The notes under the pieces: generated by a model
What the model was told of the DNA's origin: nothing
Seen by the model: the letters and a program-made list of their open reading frames with translations, nothing else
Databases searched by the model: none
Assembly (NCBI GenBank): GCA_016186945.1
Contig: JACPKR010000017.1
Location: 1-5,125 of the forward strand
DNA length: 5,125 bases
Direction: 5' to 3'
Origin: Deltaproteobacteria bacterium
GTDB taxonomy: Bacteria; Bdellovibrionota_B; Oligoflexia; Oligoflexales; Bog-1112
In this document: positions 2,212-5,125 of the stretch, piece after piece
Numbering within the stretch: the stretch's first letter is position 1
Layout of the letters: each line of letters opens with the position of its first letter
Position numbers and translations under genes: made by a program

Positions 2212-2922
2212 ATGAGAAACCGTCAAACAGCATTCATTGCGGTCACTGCTCTTTTTTTTCTTTGGGGGTTCATCACATGTCTTAATGACATTCTCATCCC
2301 GCATCTCAAAAGCATCTTTTCTCTCAATTACACAGATGCAATGTTAGTGCAGTTTGCTTTTTTTTCAGCCTATTTCTTTTTTTCCCTACCGGCTGGCTAT
2401 ATCGTTAAACGCTTTGGATATCCTAACGGCCTCATGATTGGCCTAGTCACCGCCGGGGTGGGAGCTTTGACTTTTTACCCGGCAAGTTTGCTCCATTCTT
2501 ATGGTGTATTTCTGGCAGCTCTCTTTATTCTGGCATGTGGAATTACCCTATTACAAGTTTCAGCAAACCCGTACGCAACAGCCCTTGGTCCCAGAGAAAG
2601 CGCGTCTGCCCGTCTCAATTTTGCTCAAGCATTTAATTCATTAGGAACAACAATCGCGCCGGCGATTGGAGCCTATCTTATCCTGAGCACTGTGTCTCCC
2701 TCGTCAATCTCTTTTTTTAAGACAAACACCGATTTTCCCTATATTGCAATCGCCTTGTTTTTATTTGGAATGGTTTTCGTCTTTAAAAAATTGTCATTGC
2801 CCACAGTCACTGATGAAAGTTTGCAGCAAGACAATGTTGGAAATGTCGACAAAGGCCATGCGCTTCGTTACAAAAATCTATTCTGGGGTGTGTTCGCTAT
2901 ATTTTTCTACGTAGATAAATAA
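2212..2922 (+). pseudogene. FucP/GluP-family sugar:H+ symporter, N-terminal half only
   Basis: This is a major facilitator superfamily sugar permease of the fucose/glucose-galactose type, an inner-membrane proton symporter that normally has about 400-440 residues and 12 membrane helices. Diagnostic segments are FFLWGFITCLNDILIPHLK in helix 1 (15-33), PAGYIVKRFGYPNG (60-73) after helix 2, and QVSANPYATALG (115-126) followed by ARLNFAQAFNSLG (133-145) across helices 4-5. These are signatures of the family, but they do not separate fucose, glucose/galactose or N-acetylglucosamine carriers. Helices 1-6 are present and helix 7 starts at about 222. The native frame runs to Val234 (codon ending at 2913). 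The last two residues, Asp-Lys, and the TAA come from the repeat starting at 2914. With half the helices gone it cannot be a working carrier. The missing half is not in the window. Confidence 0.85.
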
Positions 2923-3053
2923 GTGAAATAAAGCCCGTTACACTTGGTGCTGACGGCCTTGTTTCTTTACAAGAATCCGTTTTTTCAAGGAAAGTTCCAA
3001 GATGTCTTATTTTTTTGTATGGTCGCAGACCGCGGGGAGGGTTGACGGGTTGG
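2914..3053. repeat. 140-bp direct repeat, copy A
   Basis: 2914-3053 is identical, by eye, to 4986-5125, which lies 2,072 bp downstream. The left boundary is sharp: 2913 is A and 4985 is G. The right limit is unknown because copy B is cut by the window end. Copy A breaks the sugar transporter gene on its left and leads into a PDZ-coding fragment on its right. It contains nested inverted repeats (AAATAAG 2917-2923 with CTTATTT 3006-3012; CTTGG 2943-2947 with CCAAG 2997-3001; CCTTG 2957-2961 with CAAGG 2986-2990) and codes for nothing recognisable. This suggests a non-coding, MITE-like or intergenic repeat. Its family is unknown to me. Confidence 0.9.
2954..2985 (+). terminator. Terminator-like hairpin inside repeat copy A
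   Basis: CTTGT (2958-2962) pairs with ACAAG (2969-2973) around a TTCTTT loop. CGG (2954-2956) pairs with CCG (2977-2979) across a small internal loop, and six T residues follow at 2980-2985. The shape is that of a Rho-independent terminator on the + strand, but the stem is short and A/T-rich. It would end transcription coming out of the truncated transporter gene. The same structure recurs at 5026-5057. Confidence 0.4.
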
Positions 3054-3107
3054 AATGTCTTATTTTTTTGTATGGTCGCAGACCGCGGGGAGGGTTGACG
3101 GGTTGGA
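3002..3107. repeat. 53-bp tandem repeat, two copies
   Basis: Unit 1 is 3002-3054 and unit 2 is 3055-3107, identical by eye. Each begins ATGTCTTA, contains a seven-T run (3010-3016 in unit 1), then GGTCGCAGACC, a small palindrome, and ends GACGGGTTGGA. The units are directly adjacent with no spacer, so this is a minisatellite rather than a CRISPR array. Unit 1 forms the right end of the 140-bp repeat copy A. In copy B the first unit begins at 5074 and the window stops within its last base, so the copy number there is unknown. Confidence 0.9.
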
Positions 3108-3342
3108 AGGGGGCGGCCCGGCACACAAAGCAGGAATGGAAATCGGCGATGTAATCATGACTGTAGGGGATCAGAAAATTTTCGACCTCAACCAACTGGA
3201 AAGCCTCTTGCTCCGAAAATCTTCAAAAGACACCCTGAAACTAACGATTTTTCGACGTACCAAAGGCAACATGGAAGTTAAAGTCACACTCGAAGAAACT
3301 CCGAAAAATCAAGAGCTGCCTATAGAAGACGGCCTACTTTGA
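3055..3342 (+). pseudogene. C-terminal PDZ domain fragment fused to repeat sequence
   Basis: The 95-residue open frame starts at the ATG of tandem unit 2, so residues 1-18 are translated repeat sequence, not native protein. From about residue 19, EGGGPAHKAGMEIGDVIMTV begins the second half of a PDZ domain, a peptide-binding module. It is followed by KIFDLNQLESLL and a beta strand KLTIFRR, ending at a TGA after a short tail. GxPAxxAGxxxGDVI is typical of PDZ domains at the C-terminus of HtrA/DegP-type periplasmic serine proteases and related membrane proteases. The parent gene is missing, including any protease domain and the PDZ carboxylate-binding loop, so I cannot name it. There is no good ribosome site before the ATG. 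It is most likely a dead gene end brought against the repeat by insertion plus deletion, or by recombination between repeats. Confidence 0.75.
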
Positions 3343-3466
3343 CTTTTTTTCCGGACTCCTTTTTTAAGGTGATACATCGGTGGAGAATAAATTTCAGTAC
3401 TACTTCAAGAATCTTTTGCCAGTGAAAGACCTATGCAAGGGGTTGGTGTTGAGGATAAGCTGACCC

Positions 3467-3475
3467 TGTTACAAT
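3467..3475 (+). promoter_or_regulatory. Probable extended -10 promoter of the R-M operon
   Basis: TGTTACAAT at 3467-3475 matches the extended -10 pattern TGnTAtAAT with one change. A partial -35, TTGAGG (3449-3454), lies 15 bases upstream, shorter than ideal, which an extended -10 can tolerate. Transcription would start near 3482, about 20 bases before the endonuclease start codon. The rest of 3343-3503 holds no recognisable gene, terminator or controller-protein operator. Confidence 0.4.
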
Positions 3476-3503
3476 GATGCACTAGGTATGAAAGCTGAAG
3501 GCC

Positions 3504-4091
3504 ATGGGAACAGAACTACTGCCACAAAACATACGAGATAACTATGAGTTACACGAGTGGAAGCATGCATGTGCCATCCTCAAACAAGACTTTCCCAATG
3601 AGTGGGAAGATGTCATCAAAGTCCTTACAGAGTTTCGTTTTCGCCGCAGCTGGGTAACGGTTGGCGGGGGCCGAAAATCAAAAATATCAGAAGCAATTGA
3701 TAGCAAATTATATTCACGCGGCTGGGTTGAAAAACAGTTTGATACTGAAATTGTCATTGATACACATCGGATTGAAAGCCCTACCCATCAGGTTGATTGT
3801 TTCAAAAACCGTGTTGCTTTAGAAATTGAATGGAACAACAAAGATCCGTTCTTTGATCGCGATCTGAATAACTTTCGGTTGCTCTTTGAACTCCGAGCTG
3901 TGTCAGTTGGTATTATCGTCACCCGCTGCGACAACTTGCAGGAAATTTTTACCGATTTGGGACGAGGCTCAAGTTTCGGCGCATCTACGACACACATGAG
4001 CAAGTTGCTGCCTCGCATTGAAGGCGGTAGTGGTGGCGGATGTCCTGTATTGGTTATTGGCATTTCCAAAAAGCTCTATATTGAGGACTAA
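3504..4091 (+). CDS. BglII-family Type II restriction endonuclease
   Basis: This 195-residue protein resembles the BglII/BstYI endonuclease family, whose members have about 200-225 residues and cut palindromic DNA as dimers. The centre holds VDCFKNRVALEIEWNNKD: Asp98, eight residues, Glu107-Ile-Glu109. This spacing matches the BglII metal-binding site Asp84-X8-Glu93-X-Gln95, with Glu in place of the final Gln. The flanking ISEAIDSKLYSRGW (61-74) and DPFFDRDLNNFR (114-125) are also typical of the family. The only in-frame ATG near the front is at 3504, because a TGA lies at 3489-3491. Its Shine-Dalgarno-like GAAGG (3497-3501) sits only two bases from the ATG, which predicts weak translation. 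The methyltransferase follows after one base. The gene is complete and the active site looks intact. BglII cuts AGATCT and BstYI cuts RGATCY, but the site of this enzyme cannot be read from sequence. Confidence 0.8.
   Translation: MGTELLPQNIRDNYELHEWKHACAILKQDFPNEWEDVIKVLTEFRFRRSWVTVGGGRKSKISEAIDSKLYSRGWVEKQFDTEIVIDTHRIESPTHQVDCFKNRVALEIEWNNKDPFFDRDLNNFRLLFELRAVSVGIIVTRCDNLQEIFTDLGRGSSFGASTTHMSKLLPRIEGGSGGGCPVLVIGISKKLYIED
4083..4087 (+). promoter_or_regulatory. Ribosome binding site of the methyltransferase, inside the endonuclease end
   Basis: GAGGA at 4083-4087 lies in the last codons of the endonuclease gene, five bases before the ATG at 4093. It supports the start at 4093 over an in-frame ATG at 4018, and it makes translational coupling between the two genes likely. 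It is clearly better placed than the ribosome site of the endonuclease. Confidence 0.65.
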
Positions 4092-4092
4092 T

Positions 4093-4770
4093 ATGACTAA
4101 GCCAAAACAACAATCGATTTCCGAGGCAGGTGCAGACCTTCTAGCACGGACTGCGGGCCAAACTTTCGCTACCATATTGGCAGATCCACCTTGGCAGTTT
4201 CAAAATAGAACAGGCAAGATGGCCCCAGAACATAAGCGTCTTAACCGTTATGGGACGATGGTTCTAAACGACATTCTTGCTTTACCTGTTGATCGACTGA
4301 CCGCTGATACAGCTCACCTCTATTTGTGGGTACCAAATGCGCTCTTGCCAGAGGGATTGCGAGTTTTAGAAGCGTGGGGATTTCAGTACAAAAGTAATTT
4401 AGTTTGGCACAAGGTTAGAAAAGACGGCGGCCCTGATGGTCGTGGCGTGGGATTTTATTTCCGCAACACAACCGAACTAATATTGTTTGGCGTAAAAGGA
4501 AAAAAAGCTAGAACACTTGCTCCTGGTCGTAGACAAGTAAATATCATTAGGAGCATGAAGCGTGAACACAGTCGTAAACCAGACGAGATGTACGAACTTG
4601 TCGAAACATGCAGCCCTGTGCCACGACTTGAACTCTTCGCACGTGGATCTCGTCCTGGCTGGACAACTTGGGGCAACCAAGCCGACGATTACTATCCAAA
4701 CTGGCCAACCTACAACAACCATTCTCAGTCCGAACCACAATCTGATCTATTTCTAACCAAAGCGACCTGA
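4093..4770 (+). CDS. MT-A70-family DNA adenine-N6 methyltransferase
   Basis: This 225-residue protein has the layout of MT-A70-type adenine-N6 methyltransferases. The catalytic DPPW is at 31-34, then HLYLWVPN (75-82), NLVWHKV (102-108), RNTTELILFGVKG (124-136) and, at the C-terminus, SRKPDEMYELVE (160-171) with RLELFARGSRPGW (178-190) and WGNQ. DPPW near the front and the AdoMet-binding ELFARG segment near the end is the permuted order of this class. It would use S-adenosylmethionine to methylate adenine in the host DNA site and so protect it from the partner endonuclease encoded just upstream. I start it at 4093 because of the GAGGA ribosome site and because 75 bases of the longer frame lie within the endonuclease gene. 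All key motifs are present. The role as R-M partner rests on adjacency; the family also includes orphan and phage methyltransferases. Confidence 0.88.
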   Translation: MTKPKQQSISEAGADLLARTAGQTFATILADPPWQFQNRTGKMAPEHKRLNRYGTMVLNDILALPVDRLTADTAHLYLWVPNALLPEGLRVLEAWGFQYKSNLVWHKVRKDGGPDGRGVGFYFRNTTELILFGVKGKKARTLAPGRRQVNIIRSMKREHSRKPDEMYELVETCSPVPRLELFARGSRPGWTTWGNQADDYYPNWPTYNNHSQSEPQSDLFLTKAT

Positions 4771-4772
4771 AG

Positions 4773-4960
4773 CCAACAAGTACTAAGACATGTTCTCTCA
4801 TAAGACTGACTGCTGTCTCAAAATCAGTGCCGTTGTGCTTAAGTGCTAAGGCCGCTGTTGTAATCCACAGGCTGCGCTCGCCATCCTCGACTTCCTCCGG
4901 TCTTTTCAGAGCCCCTCTGCTCTGGGAACCAGAGCAGAGGGACTCATTTCCGCCAATGCC
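4773..4960 (-). pseudogene. Possible coding remnant on the minus strand
   Basis: One minus-strand frame is open from 4960 back past 4773. Over about 4773-4915 it reads like real protein, with segments KRPEEVEDGERSLWITTAA and LALKHNGTDFETAVSLMREH. The balanced, charged composition and the G/C-rich third positions are unlike chance antisense translation. There is no start codon upstream, a strong hairpin (4909-4945) interrupts its front, and towards lower positions it runs into the antisense of the methyltransferase end without a natural stop. It could be a scrap of a gene that once stood next to the R-M operon. I do not recognise the protein, and a chance open frame remains possible. Confidence 0.3.
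4909..4945. terminator. Strong hairpin downstream of the R-M operon
   Basis: Thirteen bases at 4913-4925 (CCCTCTGCTCTGG) pair perfectly with 4929-4941 around a GAA loop. After one mismatch, GAG (4909-4911) pairs with CTC (4943-4945). It lies about 140 bases after the methyltransferase stop and could stop or protect transcripts from it. It has no T run on either strand (CATTTCC follows on +), so it is not a classical Rho-independent terminator. A palindromic intergenic repeat is an equally good reading. The rest of 4771-4985 shows only the possible minus-strand remnant. Confidence 0.5.
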
Positions 4961-4985
4961 CTACACTTTAGGAAGTTTGAGCACG

Positions 4986-5125
4986 GATAAATAAGTGAAA
5001 TAAAGCCCGTTACACTTGGTGCTGACGGCCTTGTTTCTTTACAAGAATCCGTTTTTTCAAGGAAAGTTCCAAGATGTCTTATTTTTTTGTATGGTCGCAG
5101 ACCGCGGGGAGGGTTGACGGGTTGG
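4986..5125. repeat. 140-bp direct repeat, copy B, cut by the window end
   Basis: This copy is identical to 2914-3053 and in the same orientation. It starts right after GTTTGAGCACG, and the first 53-bp unit begins at 5074. The window ends within the last base of that unit, so more of the repeat, and perhaps more tandem units, may follow. With copy A it brackets the PDZ fragment, the R-M operon and the hairpin. Confidence 0.9.
5026..5057 (+). terminator. Terminator-like hairpin inside repeat copy B
   Basis: This is the same CGG/CCG and CTTGT/ACAAG stem with a TTCTTT loop and six T residues as at 2954-2985. Here it lies downstream of the R-M operon on the same strand, so it could act as the operon's terminator if the hairpin at 4909-4945 does not. 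Confidence 0.4.

Follow-up and report, generated by a model that had tools for sequence, protein, structure and literature searches.

The insertion of R-M genes (a restriction endonuclease and a DNA methyltransferase) together with a long duplication of the target has been reported (Nobusato et al. 2000; Furuta et al. 2010, both as relayed in PMC3031569 and PMC3874152), and the duplications described for such insertions are of the order of 100 bp (PMC3874152). Deletion and amplification between direct repeats have also been described for R-M genes in general, rather than for the locus reported here (PMC3031569; PMC3874152), and this includes tandem amplification (PMC3031569). Matching sequence ends can also be produced by assembly. 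According to the COBRA paper, repeats interrupt the contigs of MEGAHIT, whose ends then overlap by maxK, and 141 serves there as a largest k for this assembler (PMC10914622). An exact-word search of the literature on 141-bp contig ends gave no match for all terms.

The window is the whole stretch of DNA that was analysed, namely the entire contig C36 of 5,125 bp. It belongs to a genome assembly of 2.66 Mb in 76 contigs, which is about 91% complete. The features around the R-M genes are the following:

2212 to 2922, plus strand: N-terminal part of a fucP-like sugar transporter gene, broken at the left edge of A; the MFS_1 and fucP models extend over no more than its first ~235 residues.
2914 to 3053, plus strand: repeat copy A, identical to 4986-5125 and ~90% identical to the copies on C14, C32, C49 and C69; the element proper starts at 2915.
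3055 to 3107, plus strand: tandem duplicate of 3002-3054, the 3'-most 53 bases of the A region; similarity to the element runs on to ~3117.
3109 to 3342, plus strand: C-terminal PDZ part of an htrA-like gene, N-terminal part missing (PDZ_2, 40 bits).
3437 to 4734, plus strand: R-M module, delimited by its match to a Gallionella MAG (L202; 1,299 bases at 82.7% nucleotide identity).
3504 to 4091, plus strand: R, BglII-family type II restriction endonuclease, 195 aa (PF09195, 154.7 bits).
4093 to 4770, plus strand: M, MT-A70-type adenine methyltransferase, 225 aa (PF05063, 119 bits).
4909 to 4983, no strand assigned: segment X with a hairpin (arms 4909-4925 and 4929-4945), inverted repeat I3; partly repeated in C69 (L014:85-151, 89% identical).
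4986 to 5125, plus strand: repeat copy B, ending at base 5125, the last base of the contig.

The preliminary description had reported a complete R-M operon, with no transposase, between two identical direct repeats, and all of this is borne out. A and B match at 140 of 140 bases in the same orientation, 2,072 bases apart; R and M both lie between them, and there is no transposase frame within 2914-5125. Chance would not come near to producing such a match. Among 66 comparable R-M loci, exact repeats that bracket the genes reach 59 bases at most, and in the majority of the loci they stay below 18. The left edge of the repeat is real and biological, because the copies on C14 and C49 begin at the same base, ATAAATAAGTG, after unrelated sequence. 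The G common to positions 2914 and 4986 is probably one extra base shared by chance. The 53-bp tandem copy of the 3' part of A, directly 3' of A, had been missed by the preliminary description. Segment X with its strong hairpin precedes B. A composite transposon was considered and rejected, as the repeat is only 140-158 bp long and the block holds no transposase frame. Upstream of these features, the minus strand encodes a 596-residue protein (122-1912) whose C-terminal domain is weakly kinase-like (Pkinase, 28.6 bits, under the curated cut-off) and whose middle part is repeat-bearing, with repeats of 47 bp at 1108 and 1204.

The repeat belongs to a dispersed element. The full element is about 158 bp long, from ATAAATAAGTG to GGCCGCGGAAAAG, and diverged copies, about 90% identical, are found on four other contigs; those on C32 and C69 are truncated, and that on C49 has an internal deletion. 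None of these four copies adjoins an R-M operon. The exact 140-mer is present in the bin only at A and B. The reading of the block as a unit holds in so far as R-M genes do lie between identical direct repeats, and fails in that the repeat is not specific to them and the limits of the module differ from those of the repeats. A and B differ from each of the other copies at 7-11 positions and from one another at 0 of 140. The chance that two independent copies at 9% divergence would be identical is 0.91^140, or about 2e-6. Since independent old copies would hardly match at all 140 bases, A and B are probably recent duplicates or products of conversion, or else one sequence met twice in the assembly graph.

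A shorter related sequence is present on C52 and C22. Only one match, at the level of chance, was found in 57 other genomes of the class. That the element is widespread was likewise rejected: its 22-base core was found in none of about 85,000 species genomes, a set from which records near the source genome were possibly excluded, and 18 bases of the core match one unrelated viral contig. The element is so far known from the source genome only. A protein-coding role of the repeat was rejected too, as by alignment the reverse-strand ATG of the C32 and C49 copies is lost in A, B and C14. No target-site duplications were seen by eye around the other copies.

Three of the four other copies directly adjoin group II intron sequence. 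On C14 the 5' end of a group II intron (L015:1-353; RF02012, 70.9 bits) touches the left edge of the element; on C69 a weak remnant of domain V/VI (L014:1472-1639) follows the copy, and on C32 the copy is followed by D1-like sequence (L016:5715-6072), recognized by eye only. The only reverse transcriptase of the genome lies in a group II intron on C52 (L038:3245-4772), and the 3' flank of this intron resembles the right end of the element (79% over 52 bases). The same 87 bases as in this flank (94%) occur on C22 (L039:2087-2172) after an AbiEii toxin gene, with no intron. Other dispersed repeats are present in the genome (L013:2289-2682 in C49; L040 in C12; L041 in C13; L016 in C32), one of which reads PRLDRGIQ...DPAVKPRDD and another RRWFGGNCAAGSSKKS.

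The right edge of B is of a different nature from the left edge of the element. Exact overlaps were compared among both ends of 64 of the 76 contigs. The length met most often is 141 bases (32 entries, each pair being counted in both directions), many overlaps are 138-140 bases long, and none exceeds 141. Because the overlaps peak and end at 141, as MEGAHIT leaves them, the 140-bp length of the repeat is k-1 for MEGAHIT with k=141. The match of B to A, at 140, is one below the commonest overlap, and 12 other entries are also 140 long. Within B the assembly breaks off at the length that k=141 predicts, and the neat right-hand bracket is therefore a limit set by the assembler. Thus, the right edge of B is a stopping point of the assembler, and the true right end of this copy, with the sequence that follows it, lies outside the data. 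The length of B and its right-hand surroundings are unusable as evidence for a unit. This does not show B to be an artefact, as the contig is no less well supported where the hairpin segment meets the element than elsewhere. The locus illustrates that a repeat resembling the boundary of a mobile unit can be partly set by the k-mer length of the assembler. The left end of the contig (1-140) is multi-copy: 137-140 bases of it recur at the ends of C17, C56 and C3, and a plus-strand frame in it (2-130) resembles the C-terminus of a transposase but has no Pfam match.

On either side of A there is a broken gene. The similarity of the fucP-like gene to an intact paralogue on C12 runs to 2912 and halts at the repeat. 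The last ~76 residues of the htrA-like gene start at the right end of A; this PDZ part and the C-terminal end of an open frame of 361 residues on C13 are 56% identical, and the fragment is apparently of host-lineage type. As A joins two broken genes, a rearrangement would have taken place at the repeat. The reciprocal C-terminal half of the broken fucP-like gene was not found in the assembly, and the rearrangement can therefore not be reconstructed.

Among 12 relatives of R the acidic residues D98 and E109 are invariant and E107 is nearly so; a profile search at E 0.001 gave no match of R to a solved structure. Relatives of R are very common, with at least 574 confirmed stretches, and occur also in phages and plasmids; in 74 of 80 related genome loci M is the same-strand neighbour of R. 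R of a Nitratiruptor phage is 71% identical, and the nearest relative among the matches listed is the Gallionella MAG, with 91% amino acid identity in both R and M. Of the 58 genomes of the class, which include the source genome, only one other has the R family, as a distant match. With the family common elsewhere, its nearest member in Gallionella and a single distant match in the class, the module is probably a horizontal arrival. The substitutions in R are mostly synonymous (78 codons against 18 non-synonymous), from which R is judged to be kept functional. At its start, the stretch shared with Gallionella takes in the final codons of another gene, the one upstream of R in that MAG (ending in KGLVLRVG* there and in KGLVLRIS* here), which suggests that the donor carried the R-M genes just behind this gene. 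No direct repeats of at least 30 bp were found in 8.6 kb at the Gallionella locus. In the present locus the module ends 250-330 bp short of the repeats on either side, and the block between the repeats also holds the broken 3' end of the htrA-like gene and another repeat-like segment. By sequence comparison, the limits of the R-M module are not those of the repeats.

By combining these data, it is possible to propose a history of the locus which we consider reasonably probable as a whole: a pair of dispersed elements with a right-hand bracket limited by the assembler, R-M genes of horizontal origin, a mosaic produced by rearrangement at copies of the element, and a recent duplication or conversion of A and B. 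A rearrangement at element copies would have joined the broken fucP-like gene to the broken 3' end of the htrA-like gene. The R-M module would have arrived separately from this rearrangement, to judge from one near relative, and would have come to lie next to the htrA remnant, its source being Betaproteobacteria-like. A and B would owe their identity to a recent duplication or conversion. The observation is real, its explanation is ordinary, and the caveat that comes from the assembly is an important one.

A segment bearing the R-M genes might instead have been inserted at a locus already holding the element, duplicating at least 140 bp of target. Such an event would explain the identity of A and B by a duplication of the order already described for R-M insertion, and it has parallels among the relatives. 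The sample consists of 71 relatives in which both genes and part of the flanks are present. In four of these the R-M genes lie closely between direct repeats of 132-329 bp, whereas 0 of 126 control brackets set next to the operons have such a repeat; the contrast is indicative only, since the sample is small and the control brackets were drawn from those very loci. The four loci are:

L221: repeats of 170 bp, 90% identical, the 3' end of a SWIB-domain topoisomerase gene.
L252 (389-2670), Verrucomicrobia MAG MWDV01000006.1: repeats of 281 bp, 99.6% identical, the 5' part of the downstream frame.
L256 (1-5797), Acidobacteria MAG JAHIKI010000032.1: repeats of 132 bp, 95% identical, the 3' end of an asparaginase-like gene, in four copies.
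L225: repeats of 329 bp, 70% identical, which are paralogous genes and not a target duplication.

In L252 the downstream repeat runs on into a frame of 392 codons and the upstream copy is a cut-off 5' part of that frame, making this locus a clean candidate for a recent long target duplication. In L256 four copies of a 144-bp repeat lie between successive gene sets, one of them an R-M pair of the BglII family; this looks like repeated insertion at the 3' end of one gene, duplicating that end. The contrast with the control brackets matches what has been described for R-M genes as 'insertion with long and variable target duplication'. With about 1 in 18 BglII-family R-M loci, from unrelated bacteria, bracketed by locus-specific repeats, a sample is at hand for testing the idea of long target duplication. 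For the present locus such an insertion is nevertheless unlikely. The repeat is a pre-existing dispersed element with four diverged copies rather than a unique target; it lies 250-400 bp from the genes, compared with 44-83 bp in L221 and L256; and the block includes an htrA fragment apparently of the host lineage. The empty site suggested by the preliminary description as a check was not found in the only other genome of the genus examined, which is 75% complete and carries neither the repeat nor R.

The stopping of the assembly inside B could also mean that the block is a tandem array or a small circle. The assembly graph would then have the form of a lasso, in which B is A met again and continues at 3054. 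B does match A up to the very end of the contig, the bin offers no other continuation, the 140-mer being present only at A and B, and R-M genes are known to amplify in tandem between direct repeats. The continuation of B may, however, be merely unbinned or unassembled, and many contigs of this genome end likewise at ordinary repeats. We regard an array or circle as decidedly unlikely.

The same small probability is given to a chimera, in which the join from the transporter gene through A to the PDZ part was made by the assembler across a multi-copy element, with A and B never bracketing the R-M genes on one molecule. A wrong join at A is possible: A links halves of two unrelated genes, and the missing fucP half is nowhere in the assembly. 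Against this, the A/B version of the element occurs on no other contig, and a graph with k=141 should join only through observed k-mers.

An integron-type gene cassette with the repeat as its recombination site can virtually be dismissed, as, in spite of accessory neighbours of other copies (DUF4143 ATPases on C14, C32 and C69, and the AbiEii gene before the related element on C22), no attC motif (RYYYAAC...GTTRRRY pair) is found on either strand of A, B, C14 or C49, no integrase match exceeds the TIGR02249 cut-off in the ~91% complete assembly, single-stranded folding is no better than that of shuffled sequences on the plus strand (z 0.58) and weakly better on the minus strand (z -1.98), and one copy of the element interrupts an ordinary gene.

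Host recombination between A and B could delete or amplify the block, and the loss of the methylase would select against its deletion. Loss, amplification or circularisation of the 2,072-bp block is possible in principle; neither a single-copy junction nor presence and absence of the block was found in the comparison with the one other genome of the genus. It is very improbable that the locus represents an R-M unit which amplifies or circularises by means of a small dispersed element linked to group II introns, with host repeats serving as recombination handles for selfish R-M genes. Should the block nevertheless act as a unit, it would add a further R-M pair to those known between direct repeats, which is what the R-M addiction view predicts.

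The right-hand end of the block resembles the end overlaps left by de Bruijn assemblers in that a match of about k bases ends exactly at the contig end, in an assembly whose overlaps do not exceed 141. It differs from them in that the partner of B lies inside the same contig and the match, at 140 bases, falls one short of 141. With the long-target-duplication systems the locus shares a type II R-M pair between direct repeats of about 100 bp and the absence of a transposase inside. Unlike in those systems, the repeat is dispersed, with other copies in the genome, and one repeat is cut by the contig end; moreover, if the Gallionella-shared stretch is taken as the insert, the repeats (to ~3117 and from 4986) do not abut the module at 3437-4734. 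The genes are those of the BglII-family R-M systems, a PF09195 endonuclease with conserved acidic residues beside a DNA methyltransferase. Such a system would be predicted to cut, and to protect, a GATC-containing site. In families, order and strand the pair is the same as the BglII/BstYI-family modules of phages, plasmids and chromosomes; no difference was found in the genes themselves, and it is only by its surroundings that this locus is set apart from them.
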